Shown: one piece after another, positions 6,357 through 37,127 of the stretch
Position numbering within the stretch: position 1 is the first letter of the stretch
How the letters are laid out: every line of letters begins with the position of its first letter
Assembly: GCF_028330985.1 (NCBI RefSeq)
Contig: NZ_JAQMUE010000077.1
Span: 1 to 64,000, forward strand
Length of the DNA stretch: 64,000 nucleotides
Direction: 5' to 3'
From: Roseofilum reptotaenium CS-1145
GTDB lineage: Bacteria; Cyanobacteriota; Cyanobacteriia; Cyanobacteriales; Desertifilaceae
Translations under genes and position numbers: made by a program
The notes under the pieces: generated by a model
The model's input: the letters and a program-made list of their open reading frames with translations, nothing else
The model's database searches: none
What the model was told of the DNA's origin: nothing

Positions 6357-7274
6357 ATGAGTGTATTATTTCAAGAAATCAAACAAAGTATTCTGAATCT
6401 GGTAGGGGCTGGAATTGAGGCGCTTCCAAGGATTTTAGTGGCGATCGCCTTTTTGATGTTTACCTCTTGGGCTGCTAAGTTTGCCCGTAAGCTGTCCACT
6501 CGCGTCACAGATATGACCATCAAAAACCAGTCGCTGCGCTCTTTGTTAATTCAATTGAGTTCTGTGGCAGCTTGGGTTGTGGGGATTCTAATCTCTAGTG
6601 TCATCGCCTTTCCAGACCTGCGGTTGGGCGATGTGGTAGGGTTGTTGGGATTAAGTTCTGTTGCGATCGGTTTTGCCTTCCAAGATATCTTTAAGAATTT
6701 TCTGGCTGGAATTTTACTCCTGTTACAAGAACCATTCCGCTTAGGCGATCAAATCATTGTCGATGGTTATGAGGGAACAGTAGAAGAGATTTCTATTCGC
6801 TCCACCCAAATTCGCACCTATCAGGGGGAGTTGATTGTGGTTCCGAATTCCATTGTATTTACTTCCACAGTGCAAGTATTGACCAATTTACCTCGTCGTC
6901 GTACCGATCTGGCGATCGGTGTGGACTATAATACACCCCTGTCCCACGCGATCGAAGTTCTCTATAACGCTATTTCTGGAGTGGATGGAGTCTTAACTGA
7001 ACCCGATCCAGAAGTCGATATTGTCGGCTTTGGGGATAGCTCCATTGACTTAAAAGTACGCTACTGGACAATTCCGAATCAACGAGAAGTCTGCCGCATT
7101 CAAACTCGGGTGATGTTAGCCTTAAAAAATGCCTGTGATGGCGCAGAAATTAATATCCCCTATCCCATTCGCACTGTCTATCATTATAATCAAGAATACT
7201 TTAATGATACTTATCCCCAGGTTTCAAGTCGAACTGCCTTACAATCCAGCCCGTACGATCAAAATAGGGGGTAA
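6357..7274 (+). CDS. Small-conductance mechanosensitive channel (MscS family)
   Basis: An N-terminal set of three membrane helices ends in the MscS pore helix region (GLSSVAIGFAFQDIFKNFLAG), followed by the hallmark EPFRLGDQIIVDGYEG of the beta domain and an alpha/beta C-terminal domain. MscS-type channels open under membrane tension and release solutes during osmotic downshift. The frame also offers a GTG nine codons earlier (6330); the ATG at 6357 is preferred because the first hydrophobic segment starts soon after it. About 305 residues, normal for the minimal family. Confidence 0.88.
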   Translation: MSVLFQEIKQSILNLVGAGIEALPRILVAIAFLMFTSWAAKFARKLSTRVTDMTIKNQSLRSLLIQLSSVAAWVVGILISSVIAFPDLRLGDVVGLLGLSSVAIGFAFQDIFKNFLAGILLLLQEPFRLGDQIIVDGYEGTVEEISIRSTQIRTYQGELIVVPNSIVFTSTVQVLTNLPRRRTDLAIGVDYNTPLSHAIEVLYNAISGVDGVLTEPDPEVDIVGFGDSSIDLKVRYWTIPNQREVCRIQTRVMLALKNACDGAEINIPYPIRTVYHYNQEYFNDTYPQVSSRTALQSSPYDQNRG

Positions 7275-31250: not shown

Positions 31251-31589
31251 CGGTCTGCACCTGTTATTTATCCGGTCTTAACCTTCCTATCACTGATTCA
31301 ACCTCATCAATTGAGCGGCTCGATACATCTAAAGTTGTTAACCCAGGCCAGAGTTGCTGAAGTGAATGATTAATGTAGGTCTAGAATCGGATTTGTTATT
31401 GGCCAATCCTCGCTTACCCCAGTTTGTCTATTGGAGAGGCCAATTACATTAGGAGACTTAAAACCCATTCTAGAGGATCAATTAGAACACTTATCAGAAT
31501 TACATAAAAGAGAGCGATCGCCGGTTTTTCTCCCTCCCCTCTGGAAACGCTACAGTAGAGGAATCGAATCATACCCAGATAACCAGAAG

Positions 31590-32147
31590 ATGCGATCGCC
31601 CCTACCCTTACTCACCGTTGAAGAATATCTACACGCTGAAGCAGATAGCCCCATTCGCCATGAATACCTAGGCGGGCAAGTCTTTGCCATGGCAGGTGCA
31701 AGTGAAGAACACAATCTCATTGCCGGAAATCTTCTTGCTCTGTTGCGTCCCCATCTGCGAGGAACCGACTGTCGGGTATTTATATCCGACATGAAAATTC
31801 AAATTCAAGACCATATTTTTTACTATCCAGACTTGCTCGTAACCTGTAGCCGGAAAGACAATCATCAATACTTCAAAACTCAGCCCAACCTGATCGTTGA
31901 AGTCCTTTCCAAAAGTACAGAAAGCCTTGACCGACGAGAAAAACTCACGAACTATCAAAAACTAGAAAGCCTCAAAGAATACGTTCTTGTCTCCCAAGAG
32001 AGAATCCAAGTTGAAGTCTATCGCCAAGAGGCTCCTGGCAACTGGACAGTCCAAATCTTAGACGCAGAAAGTGAATTAACCTTAGAATCAGTAGGACTAA
32101 CCCTCACCATGGCCCAGATCTACGAAGATGTCTTCAATCTGGCATAA
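31590..32147 (+). CDS. Uma2-family protein (full-length copy)
   Basis: The 185-residue core is complete: LLTVEEYLHAEADSPIRHEY, GGQVFAMAGASEEHN, IFYYPDLLVTCSRKD, NLIVEVLSKSTESLDRREKL and YVLVSQERIQVEVYRQE. Asp, Glu and Lys positions fit a PD-(D/E)xK nuclease fold. The frame continues upstream to 31431, but the family core begins at MRSPLPLLTVEEY, so 31590 is used. A collapsed second copy of this gene, including part of its upstream sequence, lies at 36255-36421. Confidence 0.85.
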   Translation: MRSPLPLLTVEEYLHAEADSPIRHEYLGGQVFAMAGASEEHNLIAGNLLALLRPHLRGTDCRVFISDMKIQIQDHIFYYPDLLVTCSRKDNHQYFKTQPNLIVEVLSKSTESLDRREKLTNYQKLESLKEYVLVSQERIQVEVYRQEAPGNWTVQILDAESELTLESVGLTLTMAQIYEDVFNLA

Positions 32148-32834: not shown

Positions 32835-32938
32835 GGAACCATCTGGCCCCGAAACTCAGCCGGGCACGTATAGTGGGGATAATCCAACAACCCCTCCTCA
32901 AAACTCTCCGCCTTCAAAGACTCCTCCTTTCCCACCGT
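32835..32938 (-). pseudogene. Duplicated internal fragment of trmD (104 bp)
   Basis: These 104 bases match 36556-36659 inside the intact trmD gene with five mismatches, about 95 percent identity, in the same orientation. Similarity stops sharply at both sides (after CCCACCGT on the right). It is not a gene but a scar of a duplication or insertion that now flanks the island up to the intact trmD. Confidence 0.9.
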
Positions 32939-32966: not shown

Positions 32967-34358
32967 TCAATTTCCACTTGGCATCAAACTCATCACATAA
33001 TGCTGTAATACCGGCTGTAAGGCATAAAATTTTTCCTCTTTTTCAATTAAATAACGCCGAGTTAAAGATTGTAAAGCATTTAGTAGGTCTGAGGATGAAA
33101 TGGGTTGATGCTCTAGTAATCTTGCCAGGTTAACCGGTTTGCCCTCTCTCGCCAACAGAAATATGACTTCTTTTTCAGTTTCCGATAACCGATTAAACTG
33201 TTGGTCTAAATTATCTTTTAAATCTTCAGGTAGTATAATATCGTCCTCAACAAATAACTCACTGGGGCTGAGTTCTAAATCTTCCATTAAAGTTGCCAAT
33301 GTTTTTAACCATAAAGGGTTCCCTTGGTAGAGGGAAGTCAGCGATTGACTAATCTCCGAACTGGCAATCCCGCGATCGTCAAATATTTTTACAGCCTCTT
33401 TGTAGTTTAACCCAGTCAGTGTAAGGCTGCGAACGGCATCGTATTTGCTTTTGCACTGGGCAACTTCTCTCGGTTGTTCCCAACCAGTAAGCAACAAACA
33501 ACTGTGATGATATAATTCCTCAATTTGCTTAAAGAAGGTTCCATAATCTTTCGTTTCCGGTTTATATTCTCCTGAAATTTTTCCATCACTAAATAGATTT
33601 TGAACATCATCAAAAACCAATAAGCAGCGATATTTTTGCAGATATTTACGCAGGGATAACCGCCTGTTTTTTTGAGGTACTGACTGGATTTCTTGCTGCT
33701 GGCGAAGAAAATCAATTAGATCCGTTTCTAGTTGGGCAAGCGTTGGGCAATTTTCTAGACTCCGCCACACCACATAGTCAAATTCATCTTTGATTTCTTG
33801 GATTAGTTTTGTCGCCAGTGTGGTTGTACCAATGCCACTTATTCCGTCAATGGTGACCAGACGACATTTTTCTTGAATAATCCATTTTTTCAGAGTTTTG
33901 AGTTCATCTGTACGATCATAACAAATTGGACAATCCGGCATTTCACTCAAATCTTGATGCCTGATTTCCGTTGTTATCCTGTCAGATTTTGTGGAATGAT
34001 TTCCCGTATTGGGTATATTCGACTGGTGGTATGCATCCCTACAAAAATTGTAATTACTAATCTGTGCAAAGTCTTTGGCGCAATTGGAAGATATAATAGC
34101 AACTTTTAACCTTTCCATTGTAGCTCGATAATTAGATTTATGGACATCTTCCCCCAACATTTCTGAGAGTATTTGCCATAATTTAGAACCCACATCCCTA
34201 ACATGACCTTCAGAACAGCGAAATCCATCAGCTATTTCTTGGTATGTCTTACCTTGGACTGTTCCTCGAAGTACCGCTTCTTGCAAGTCATCAAGGTGCT
34301 GCTCTGTCTTGGCTAATACCAACTCATCTGCGAGTTTTAACATTTCCTTAAGATTCAT
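32967..34358 (-). CDS. STAND/NB-ARC-type ATPase with N-terminal HTH, lacking the Walker A lysine
   Basis: Residues 1-90 resemble the HTH found at the start of cyanobacterial vWA-MoxR-associated NTPases (YQEIADGFRCSEGHVRDVG). The NTPase part has VTIDGISGIGTTTLATKLI where GxGGIGKTT is expected; the Lys position is Thr (codon at 33825-33827). Walker B RCLLVFDDVQNLF is normal. A winged-helix region (LSETEKEVIFLLAREG) ends in YALQPVLQHYVMSL, where the protein stops. Most relatives continue into WD40 or TPR repeats, so this 463-residue form lacks a sensor. It may be a truncated or regulatory member. It is divergent from the precursor and rSAM pair. Confidence 0.75.
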   Translation of the reverse strand: MNLKEMLKLADELVLAKTEQHLDDLQEAVLRGTVQGKTYQEIADGFRCSEGHVRDVGSKLWQILSEMLGEDVHKSNYRATMERLKVAIISSNCAKDFAQISNYNFCRDAYHQSNIPNTGNHSTKSDRITTEIRHQDLSEMPDCPICYDRTDELKTLKKWIIQEKCRLVTIDGISGIGTTTLATKLIQEIKDEFDYVVWRSLENCPTLAQLETDLIDFLRQQQEIQSVPQKNRRLSLRKYLQKYRCLLVFDDVQNLFSDGKISGEYKPETKDYGTFFKQIEELYHHSCLLLTGWEQPREVAQCKSKYDAVRSLTLTGLNYKEAVKIFDDRGIASSEISQSLTSLYQGNPLWLKTLATLMEDLELSPSELFVEDDIILPEDLKDNLDQQFNRLSETEKEVIFLLAREGKPVNLARLLEHQPISSSDLLNALQSLTRRYLIEKEEKFYALQPVLQHYVMSLMPSGN

Positions 34359-34548
34359 CCTCTCTCGCCCATCTCAGACTGGCTCTGATTATATCCTACA
34401 TTTTCCGATGATTGCTGACATTTAGTGATAATTCCCAAATGGACTTCATTTTTTTCTCAGAAAAGTTCATACTAAATATTACATTTTCCGATTGCCTAAG
34501 TCTCAATCAATGAAATACTATTAAAAAGTCAATCAACCTTAAAAGCTC
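34359..34548. promoter_or_regulatory. Divergent promoter region with direct repeats
   Basis: This AT-rich 190-base gap separates the STAND gene from the precursor peptide gene. TACATTTTCCGATGATTGC at 34397 and TACATTTTCCGATTGC at 34480 are direct repeats 83 bases apart. A TACTAT -10-like box lies shortly before the peptide gene. The repeats could be operators shared by both directions. Confidence 0.45.
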
Positions 34549-34797
34549 ATGTCTCAAGTTATCTCTGTTAGTCCAGAAACTCTTCAGTCAGGAAATTCAA
34601 ATCTAACCATAGATACCCAATCCGTTTATTCGGAATATCCTTTTCAAGAAATTTCTCAAGGATTATACAATGAAATTTCTAAGTCATTATATCATACTGA
34701 AAAAACTGAAGATGGTAGTGTTCCAGGTTTTTGCATATGTTGTATCCAAGGTTGTTGTGTCAGCCATTGCTGTATTCAATGTATGAACATTAATTAA
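34549..34797 (+). CDS. Candidate Cys-rich RiPP precursor peptide
   Basis: An 82-residue peptide with a polar, cysteine-free N-terminal part (about residues 1-58, leader-like, with FQEISQGLYNEIS) and a dense C-terminal core beginning after SVPG: FCICCIQGCCVSHCCIQC, then MNIN. Eight cysteines occur in 17 residues, arranged as three CCxxx pentads. The radical SAM/SPASM gene starts 26 bases later in the same direction. Size, composition split and neighbour all fit a ribosomally made, enzyme-modified peptide. I do not recognise the sequence as a named RiPP class. Confidence 0.7.
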   Translation: MSQVISVSPETLQSGNSNLTIDTQSVYSEYPFQEISQGLYNEISKSLYHTEKTEDGSVPGFCICCIQGCCVSHCCIQCMNIN

Positions 34798-34823
34798 ATA
34801 CATATAATGGAAAGGAGATGAAT

Positions 34824-36245
34824 ATGTACTACCCAAGCCAATATAATCATTTATTTGAAACCACAACGGCTAACGGAAAACCAGTTAGGTTATTAAGCAA
34901 CCTTTTTTTTGGTGCATCAATACAGGTCAATGCAAAAGTCTATAAGGTTTTTAAGGAGGCAGAAATAAATGGATCGATTCAGGGTAAATATTTAAGTGCA
35001 GACGTTTGGCAGTATTTCCTTGACAAAGGTTTTGTTTGGACTGAAGCAACCTCCGAAGATGCGACAATCAAAAGTTTATTTAGGAGACAATTCAACGGAG
35101 ATGCAATTGCTGCTCATTTAAAAGGTGGTGATTATGGTTTCATAACTTCTCTTAACTGCAATTTGGCTTGTCCCTATTGTTTTCAAAGAAGTAAGGCAGA
35201 CTCTTGCGGATTTTTAACTCGACAACAAGTAGACTTAGCCTTCAATGTCATAGAAAGTCGTGAAACTAAAATTAAGAGTCTTGTAAAAGAAGACAAAGGC
35301 TTTTTGCCAAAAATTTCAATTACTGGAGGTGAACCTTTACTACCCAACAAAGCGAACTTAGAAGTTCTAGAATACCTGCTTGAACGGTTGGGGGATTTAC
35401 AGTGGCCATACAGTATTACTACAAATGGAACAGAGTTAGCCAAATTTGTAAAGAATCGTTCCTTAGAAAAAAACTGTAATCATATCCAAGTGACTTTAGA
35501 TGGATCTGCTGAAATTCACGATCGACGGCGTTGCTTTCGTAATGGTGCCCCTTCATTTGAAAAAATTTGTTCGGGAATTGATGCAGCTTTATCAGCTAAC
35601 TGGCCAATTGTCTTACGGGTGAATTTAGATATAGATAGCGTTAAGTTTATCTCTCAACTTTCTCAATTCGTCCAAAAACAAGGATGGTGCAACAATCAAC
35701 ACTTTTACGCTTATGTATCGCCTGTAACGGATCATGGAAATATCGGTGATTATGAGAATCCTAATGAAGCAGATTTGCTCGTTAAGCTATTGGATATACT
35801 TCAAGAAAGTCCAGAGGTAAGGGAAGTTTTTGATATTCGGCATTTTCGAGGCTTTAGTTATGTAGAGCAAATGCTAAATAAAAAACCACGTTATCCGATT
35901 TTTTATCGATGTGAAGCTGTCCGAGAAATGTATATTTTCGATCCTAAAGGAGATATCCATGTTTGTCTTGAGGCGGTTGGAGATCGATCTTTTCGGATTG
36001 GAACCTACGATCCATCCTTGAGTTTAAATGATGCGTCAGTAACTAAATGGACTCAAAGAAGTGTTATGGACTTGGACAACTGTCGTAACTGTAAAGTTCG
36101 CTTTATTTGTTCTGGTGGTTGTGCTTTTGAGGGATTTAACTACCCAGAGAAAATTCATTGTATGCCTTTCCTGGAAGAAATAGATATTGCCTGGGAATAC
36201 TACGTTAAAACTAAGCCAGAATTATTTAAGGGTAGCGCTTTGTGA
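34824..36245 (+). CDS. Radical SAM/SPASM peptide maturase
   Basis: The radical SAM cluster motif CNLACPYC (CxxxCxxC) appears at about residue 112, followed by SITGGEPLL, ITTNGTEL and VTLDGSAEIHDRRR as in SPASM-type maturases. The C-terminal SPASM region supplies cysteines in RCEAV, HVCLEAVG, CRNCKVRFICSGGCAFEG and a final C near HCMPF for extra Fe-S clusters. The first 90 residues may be a leader-recognition-like part (FGASIQVNAKVYKVFKEAE). AAAGGAG at 34811-34817 sets the start at 34824 rather than the abutting ATG at 34818. Its likely substrate is the Cys-rich peptide just upstream. Confidence 0.87.
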   Translation: MYYPSQYNHLFETTTANGKPVRLLSNLFFGASIQVNAKVYKVFKEAEINGSIQGKYLSADVWQYFLDKGFVWTEATSEDATIKSLFRRQFNGDAIAAHLKGGDYGFITSLNCNLACPYCFQRSKADSCGFLTRQQVDLAFNVIESRETKIKSLVKEDKGFLPKISITGGEPLLPNKANLEVLEYLLERLGDLQWPYSITTNGTELAKFVKNRSLEKNCNHIQVTLDGSAEIHDRRRCFRNGAPSFEKICSGIDAALSANWPIVLRVNLDIDSVKFISQLSQFVQKQGWCNNQHFYAYVSPVTDHGNIGDYENPNEADLLVKLLDILQESPEVREVFDIRHFRGFSYVEQMLNKKPRYPIFYRCEAVREMYIFDPKGDIHVCLEAVGDRSFRIGTYDPSLSLNDASVTKWTQRSVMDLDNCRNCKVRFICSGGCAFEGFNYPEKIHCMPFLEEIDIAWEYYVKTKPELFKGSAL

Positions 36246-36254
36246 TGTCATGAA

Positions 36255-36421
36255 GGGCGATCGCACTTTTTCCTCCCTCCCCTCTGGAAACGCTACAGTA
36301 GAGGCATCGAATCATACCCAGGATAAGCAGAAGATGCGATCGCCCCGTTCGTCATGAATACCTGGGCGGGCATATCTTTGCCATGGCCCAAATCTACGAA
36401 GATGTCTTTAACCTGGGATAA
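36255..36421 (+). pseudogene. Collapsed Uma2 copy with two internal deletions
   Basis: The segment matches the Uma2 locus at about 31512-32147 in three pieces: up to GCGATCGCCCC (near 31602), then from CCCC/ATTCGCCATGAATACC (31650) to GCCATGG (31692), then from CCATGGCCCA (32107) to the stop. The lost parts are about 50 and 415 bases, and each junction falls in a short shared word (CCCC, CCATGG). It is therefore a decayed duplicate, now lying end-on to trmD. Confidence 0.88.
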
Positions 36422-36425
36422 CCTA

Positions 36426-37127
36426 TCACTTTTCAATTTTTCCTTGCTCCAACCAAGCTTCATATAAATCTGGTCGTCGCTGCTTCGTCCTCTCCACCTG
36501 CTGCTCGTAGCGCCATTGGGCAATTTTGCCATGATCCCCCGACAGCAAAACATCCGGAACCCTCTGGCCCCGAAACTCAGCCGGTCGCGTATAGTGAGGA
36601 TAATCCAACAAACCCTCCTCAAAACTCTCCGCCTTCAAAGACTCCTCCTTTCCCACCGTCCCTGGTAACAGCCGAATTACCCCATTAACGATCGCCAAGG
36701 CCGGAATCTCACCCCCCGTTAGCACAAAATCCCCCAAAGACACCTCACGAGTCACCAAACTTAACACCCGCTCATCTACCCCCTCATAATGGCCGCAAAT
36801 AATCGCCAACTGGTCATACTCCCTCGCCCAAGTTTTAAACAATCCCTGTTCTAGAGGCTCTCCCTGGGGAGTCATCAACAGCACCTCACGATGATTCCCC
36901 AGCGGTAAAGATTCCACCGCTGCAAAAATAGGTTCCGGCTTAATCACCATGCCCACACCCCCCCCATAAGGTTCATCATCTACCTTATGGTGCTTATCAG
37001 TGGTAAAATCGCGGGGGTTGGTCAAATAAACCTGAGCAATGTTTTTGGCAAGAGCCTTGCCCAACAATCCTGAACTCAGGGGGGACGAGAAAAAATCAGG
37101 AAACAGTGTAATGAGATCGAATCGCAA
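36426..37127 (-). CDS. trmD: tRNA (guanine-N1)-methyltransferase TrmD
   Basis: A 233-residue SPOUT enzyme starting MRFDLITLFPDFF, with DEPYGGGVGMVIKPEP, IICGHYEGVDERV and the knot motif EVSLGDFVLTGGEIPAL, all hallmark TrmD segments. It methylates G37 of tRNAs next to the anticodon and prevents +1 frameshifting. The gene is intact. A 104-bp copy of part of it (36556-36659) lies 3.6 kb to the left at 32835-32938. Confidence 0.95.
   Translation of the reverse strand: MRFDLITLFPDFFSSPLSSGLLGKALAKNIAQVYLTNPRDFTTDKHHKVDDEPYGGGVGMVIKPEPIFAAVESLPLGNHREVLLMTPQGEPLEQGLFKTWAREYDQLAIICGHYEGVDERVLSLVTREVSLGDFVLTGGEIPALAIVNGVIRLLPGTVGKEESLKAESFEEGLLDYPHYTRPAEFRGQRVPDVLLSGDHGKIAQWRYEQQVERTKQRRPDLYEAWLEQGKIEK

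Follow-up and report, generated by a model that had tools for sequence, protein, structure and literature searches.

A candidate radical SAM-modified peptide cassette with a paired-cysteine core in Roseofilum reptotaenium, whose core and enzyme body appear to have been exchanged together

A short cysteine-rich open reading frame lies immediately upstream of a radical SAM (rSAM)/SPASM gene in Roseofilum reptotaenium CS-1145, raising the question of whether the two genes encode a RiPP precursor and its maturase, and of what kind. We analysed a 64,000-nucleotide stretch of contig NZ_JAQMUE010000077.1 (positions 1 to 64,000; assembly GCF_028330985.1), referred to here as the window. The peptide gene (34549–34797, + strand) encodes 82 residues. 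A preliminary description had proposed a cysteine-free, leader-like half, and residues 1–61 (34549–34731, +) indeed contain no Cys; they end in PGF and include no double glycine. The core, comprising residues 62–82 (34732–34794, +), carries eight Cys arranged as CxCC-xxx-CC-xxx-CC-xx-C and contains no Asp, and the three CCxxx pentads described previously, with eight Cys in 17 residues, can be read directly from C62 to C78 (CICC IQG CC VSH CC IQC). The peptide had no match in NCBIfam and a single, sub-threshold match in Pfam (SusF_N, E 0.13); specifically, metallothionein families gave no match in NCBIfam and none in Pfam up to E 1.

A homologue of the peptide gene is found at locus L003 (positions 6689–6919), in genome G388 from the same genus (contig DDLS01000057.1, Cyanobacteria bacterium UBA2566). 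The L003 peptide has 76 residues, and its core reads CTCC DF CC DW CC V. The two peptides have in common the leader (35 of the first 42 residues are identical), the PGF preceding the core, and the CxCC-CC-CC pattern. After the first 42 residues only 10 of 31 aligned positions agree, namely six Cys plus E, P, G and F, such that variation is concentrated in the core, as had been anticipated, in the one relative available. The anticipated conservation of the pentads was seen in part: the CC pairs persist in L003, but their spacing does not, being CCxxxCCxxxCC in the window and CCxxCCxxCC in L003.

We considered whether such a cysteine array could arise by chance. The pattern CC-x(2,3)-CC-x(2,3)-CC was found only in the peptide and its homologue when all six frames of the window and the compared loci were scanned (487,158 bases, including overlapping copies), and none of 200,000 mononucleotide-shuffled versions of the core contained a three-CC array. 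By contrast, 7–8 Cys per 17 residues also occurred at two unrelated loci (L031/L054 and L034/L057), in short, open stretches that have no leader and, by eye, overlap Ala/Gly-rich frames. Cys density alone is therefore not decisive, and we dropped it as sole evidence, since these off-frame controls indicate that a chance origin is possible. The best argument that the peptide is more than a chance reading frame is that L003 keeps both the frame and the Cys pattern despite core DNA that is only 33–50% identical.

The adjacent gene (34818–36245, +) encodes an rSAM/SPASM enzyme of 475 residues, or 473 residues if translation begins at the ATG at 34824. The latter start is the likelier, because AAGGAG at 34812–34817 lies 6 nt ahead of this ATG and because it matches the start of the L003 enzyme (MYY); with this start, the previously reported distance of 26 bases between the peptide and enzyme genes holds, although the listed reading frame begins at 34818. 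The protein matches Pfam Radical_SAM (56.3 bits) and the SPASM model TIGR04085 (46.8 bits, cut-off 27). The rSAM cluster motif CNLACPYC (35157–35180, +; C114, C118 and C121 of CxxxCxxC) and the seven SPASM cysteines (C365, C383, C422, C425, C431, C435 and C448; 35910–36161, +) are invariant in all 21 aligned sequences. An AlphaFold2 model of the enzyme (mean pLDDT 77.3, pTM 0.77) begins with four strands followed by three helices, and we read this N-terminal part, residues 1–93 (34818–35096, +), as a putative RRE-like domain, based on its predicted secondary structure and on Foldseek alignments that run along the lengths of CteB and SuiB. CteB was the best match in the PDB by sequence (5wgg) and the top Foldseek match of the model (E 7e-16; TM 0.55–0.59 on the query), with an rmsd of 9 Å or more and an uncertain orientation of the domains in the model; TigE, SuiB and anSME ranked next, and EpeE was also among the related folds. 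The accessible text of PMC8326336 describes CteB as a ranthisynthase with an N-terminal RRE and a SPASM domain. Cysteine conservation, the model and the fold together place the same order of domains in the window enzyme, with domain limits drawn partly by eye.

We next asked how widely the gene pair is distributed. The L003 enzyme is 68% identical to the window enzyme, and a close enzyme occurs in two of six genomes of the genus; precursor and enzyme genes adjoin in both. The expected co-occurrence of peptide and enzyme thus held wherever the close enzyme was found, but on a basis of two genomes, and the enzyme homologue of the one relative available lies beside the same kind of peptide. At 1e-30, enzyme matches were found in 14 of 388 genomes of the order, of which only G000 and G388 carry close enzymes and the other 12 belong to a distant group; at 1e-35, three of 388 genomes of the class had matches (the two draws of 388 genomes overlap in part). 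Searching the class genomes with the precursor returned its own locus and one 25% match containing two stops (G179), and searching the order genomes with a two-row precursor alignment returned G000, G388 and a match to the core half in G116 (E 0.004, two stops), which we discounted. A pattern scan of the genome contigs, which detects close relatives only, matched eight stretches, one of which, L003, codes for a relative; 51 stretches matched among viral contigs, with no relative among them. Two plasmid records matched the enzyme at 29–30% identity, with no peptide match among plasmids, and five phage records matched at 21–25%.

The window and L003 enzymes form a pair (100/100) in a 21-sequence tree, on a long stem (2.87) that joins 14 cyanobacterial enzymes at 97/97, with TIGR04463-like sequences falling outside this group. 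Leader-like small peptides are seen by eye at 12 of the 14 loci of these grouped enzymes, two of the peptides being truncated where the locus ends. Near-identical peptides with double-glycine leaders and two-Cys cores lie beside distant relatives of the enzyme in G682 (three copies; L072:422–1191) and in G418 (two copies; L064:6321–8459). At L065, L074, L077 and L078, enzymes of the same rSAM group as the G418 clade lie beside Nif11-like peptides and a gene that, from its appearance, we take to be a tryptophan halogenase, which suggests halogenated rSAM-RiPPs. Elsewhere, in the window's own genome (contig C65, L051:4975–6614) and in G390 (L052:5360–7114), a small ORF that encodes 14-residue repeats, SCNGVVREFATQKL, lies downstream of a TIGR04463-like rSAM gene in the same orientation; the rSAM gene of the window's own genome scores 506 bits to TIGR04463 (cut-off 525). 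At L052 the DNA consists of 3.4 tandem copies of a 42-bp unit, and these ORFs may be repeat-type precursors or only DNA repeats. In G394, from the window's family, a 249-residue ORF with a Cys at every fifth residue lies beside a TIGR04463 rSAM gene (538 bits; L053:4962–7236), with subtilisin-like fragments nearby, as judged by eye.

The peptide and enzyme genes appear to be part of a larger unit, a point absent from the preliminary description, as is the exchange of core with enzyme body discussed below. Divergent from them lies a gene for a 463-residue STAND protein (32967–34358, −; Pfam NB-ARC 52.1 bits) with a sigma-70 region 4-like HTH, itself a weak match; it is 88% identical in L003 and is probably a regulator, or a passenger, of the cassette. 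The intergenic region between them (34359–34548) matches L003 at 180 of 190 bases and contains two copies of the 13-nt repeat TACATTTTCCGAT, at 34397–34409 and 34480–34492, 83 bases apart, with one mismatch in one copy in L003. This repeat pair is a possible operator; scans for promoters and terminators gave nothing useful, with no promoter found in the intergenic region. STAND paralogues at six other places (L054–L058 and L063) have no adjoining rSAM gene or comparable peptide, and we dropped these paralogues as a marker of the cassette. At two further loci, L049 (G388, contig C207) and L050 (G392, contig C79), STAND paralogues are oriented divergently from another rSAM gene, whose product has 464 or 459 aa, respectively, with no small ORF of at least 40 aa listed between the two genes.

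The STAND, peptide and enzyme genes are flanked by a gene that we take to be trmD (36426–37127, −), which was matched in all 10 genomes searched, and, on the far side, by a trmD fragment (32835–32938, −) that is 95% identical to 36556–36659. A remnant of a Uma2 gene (36254–36421, +; matching 31511–31693 and 32107–32147) lies between the enzyme gene and trmD. In L003 the trmD fragment has the same edge, at window base 36659, and the contig breaks off in the 3′ end of trmD. In a third species, G392, the DNA follows the window to 32998, some ten codons into the STAND gene, and resumes at 36425 beside trmD; G392, too, carries the trmD fragment, and its edge is the same. From these matches we conclude that the cassette was most likely lost from G392, with a scar left behind. 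trmD occurs without the cassette in G389, G390 and G391; a DNA match in G389 to the very end of the rSAM gene covers only about a dozen bases and was set aside. In agreement with the earlier description, the pair has no protease or transporter gene next to it, its neighbours being the STAND gene, Uma2 genes, trmD and a gene for cyanophycinase (a peptidase of cyanophycin); two matches to C39 peptidases in the same genome are both on other contigs.

Comparison of the window with L003 revealed a mosaic pattern of divergence. Synonymous divergence is low on either side of the peptide and enzyme genes, with a dS of 0.132 for the STAND gene and 0.139 for trmD (164 codons), and remains low in the leader (dS 0.20 over 43 codons; DNA ~88% identical). 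At ~34665, DNA identity drops to the 33–50% seen through the core and to 47–82% over most of the enzyme, and it returns to ~93–100% over the rest of the enzyme gene from 36111. From this profile and from dS we delimited a divergent block comprising the core and enzyme body (34665–36105, +; edges approximate, set by eye), interrupted by a conserved patch at ~35471–35630 with ~88–95% identity. By alignment columns of the enzyme, dS is 1.385 (3–222), 0.156 (223–262), 1.36 (263–425) and 0.219 (426–475). Fisher tests on synonymous sites, using blocks picked after viewing the profile, gave 6e-35 for the STAND gene against the enzyme body and 1.6e-5 for the enzyme tail against the body.

The simplest reading of this pattern is that recombination through conserved flanks replaced the core and enzyme body jointly, based on near-identical flanks on either side of a body with high dS, and on the return of identity at the 3′ end. 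Searches found no donor for the exchanged block, and a second copy of the cassette was seen in neither genome; with only two alleles to compare, the same observations leave some room for ordinary fast evolution of the core and enzyme body, or for old paralogues with differential loss. We regard both alternatives as improbable. Synonymous change in the block is tenfold that in the STAND gene and trmD, and low dS returns abruptly both at the enzyme 3′ end and in the internal patch; old paralogues, moreover, would still require recombination to account for the shared flanks. Enzyme residues 3–38, which form the sheet predicted for the RRE-like domain, are identical at 30 of 36 positions despite a pS of 0.77 in the first 25-codon window of the enzyme, as compared with 26 of 67 for residues 39–105, which fits constant recognition of the leader alongside a changing core. 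Compared with the adjoining noncoding DNA, 180/190 of which is identical, the leader itself shows no clear excess of constraint (dN/dS of the leader ~0.58). More tentatively, and as a proposal that we would not yet put at even odds, the regulator, promoter region, leader and enzyme 3′ end may serve as constant homology arms between which a matched core and enzyme body are swapped as one module, in a locus adapted to switching products, and the linkage pattern of the CC pairs, with adjacent Cys each bonded to a separate partner, could be new.

In both genomes, a gene for a modifying enzyme lies beside a small precursor gene in which leader and core can be told apart, as is characteristic of RiPPs. 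Taken together, the gene content and its conservation indicate that the product of the pair is very probably a cross-linked peptide in which paired cysteines follow one another in an unusual array; thioether links are likely. We consider it probable that the cassette works as follows. The ribosome would yield the 82-residue precursor, whose Cys-free leader would be bound by the RRE-like N-terminus of the enzyme. The rSAM cluster would then generate a 5′-deoxyadenosyl radical that abstracts a hydrogen from the core, and a Cys thiolate, perhaps held on an auxiliary cluster, would close the thioether; the accessible part of PMC8326336 gives radical formation, hydrogen abstraction and closure by a Cys thiolate as a general scheme. 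In the core, the sulfurs of the CC pairs would be linked to carbons of nearby residues, as in ranthipeptides or sactipeptides. A protease and an exporter coded elsewhere may release the product, the STAND/HTH protein probably controls the unit, and the product would probably change when recombination introduces a core together with its matching enzyme. In sactipeptides, the thioether is made to the alpha carbon. The ranthipeptide thioether runs from the Cys sulfur to a beta or gamma carbon, as defined in the available text of PMC8326336. Of the earlier proposal of a ranthipeptide- or sactipeptide-like product, the assignment as a precursor with an rSAM/SPASM maturase is well supported (kept leader, variable core, RRE-like N-terminus, rSAM motif, seven SPASM Cys and CteB fold), but sequence does not distinguish between the two classes.

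The residues that follow the Cys pairs differ between the alleles (IQG/VSH/IQC in the window and DF/DW/VH in L003), and with these residues not conserved, no acceptor rule is visible. The lack of a conserved acceptor lends some weight to the possibility that the enzyme modifies the peptide by other chemistry (C–C links, epimerisation or another reaction), with the CC pairs forming disulfides or binding metal, as does the presence among the related folds of SuiB, TigE and EpeE, which include enzymes of different chemistry. TigE is an enzyme of non-thioether chemistry. According to the accessible text of PMC8326336, SuiB chemistry differs from thioether formation by CteB. Nevertheless, it is the thioether-forming CteB that matches best by both sequence and fold, and Cys are the main conserved feature of the core, such that we judge other chemistry to be unlikely, although the most serious competitor to thioether linkage.

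A metal-binding, metallothionein-like peptide whose adjoining rSAM gene acts on another substrate would account for 7–8 Cys in 13–17 residues, the CC and CxC motifs and the nearby His, but not for a conserved 61-residue Cys-free leader, the absence of a family match for the peptide, or the joint divergence of core and enzyme body between flanks that do not diverge; we consider this very improbable. STAND ATPases are often found in defence. Together with the two STAND paralogues of the genus that are divergent to a different rSAM gene (L049 and L050) and a weak match of the enzyme to viperin models (42.3 bits), this could point to a defence-like unit in which the peptide is an effector or signal. 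The viperin match, however, spans only the shared rSAM core, and the PADLOC match of the STAND protein is weak and partial (15.4 bits), so that we give this last reading scarcely any weight.

Among known systems, CteA/CteB (SCIFF, a ranthipeptide) are alike in pairing a Cys-rich core with an enzyme that has an RRE-like N-terminal part, an rSAM barrel and a seven-Cys SPASM domain; the present pair differs in its low identity to them (17–18%), in having eight Cys in 17 residues as CC pairs, and in its divergent STAND gene, and the enzyme falls below the cut-off of the SCIFF maturase model TIGR03974 (81.7 bits against 425). Among the 25 of 69 NCBIfam matches listed, no model other than the general SPASM domain model reached its curated cut-off. 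The closest maturase model among them was CefB (Cys-every-fifth, NF038107), which is alike in that both members of the window's CC pairs recur every five residues; however, the L003 pairs recur every four residues, and the scores are far below the cut-off of 600 (125.2 bits for the window enzyme and 126.4 bits for L003). A search for "radical SAM" with "Cys-every-fifth" yielded no published account of this family among the matches listed. The second-best of the listed models, TIGR04463, likewise describes a maturase of Cys-rich peptides, but the enzymes score 121.2 (window) and 122.8 bits (L003) against a cut-off of 525, its members form a separate, starred branch of the tree, and their precursors are unlike the peptide described here. 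The cyanobacterial rSAM/SPASM clade (G418, G087 and others) whose genes lie next to peptides of the double-glycine or Nif11-like type, and to which the pair is joined in the tree, shares the SPASM cysteines, yet is only 23–29% identical over the full alignment and is associated with peptides that have few Cys and other leaders. CC-pair arrays are, to our knowledge, a substrate type of no described class, and we found no description of a CC-pair substrate among the matches listed in the literature searched. PapA/PapB (freyrasin) combine repeated Cys motifs with a ranthipeptide maturase; PapB strictly requires Cys-x3-Asp according to the accessible portion of PMC8172795, a motif absent from the window core, and the PapB model NF047865 scores 98.6 bits against a cut-off of 340. 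On these comparisons, the system appears to belong to the rSAM-modified RiPPs. If this is correct, a maturase that handles consecutive cysteines would provide a test case for how rSAM enzymes distinguish neighbouring thiols, and two natural alleles with a shared leader but a different core and enzyme body would bear on whether core and maturase are matched in the evolution of RiPPs.
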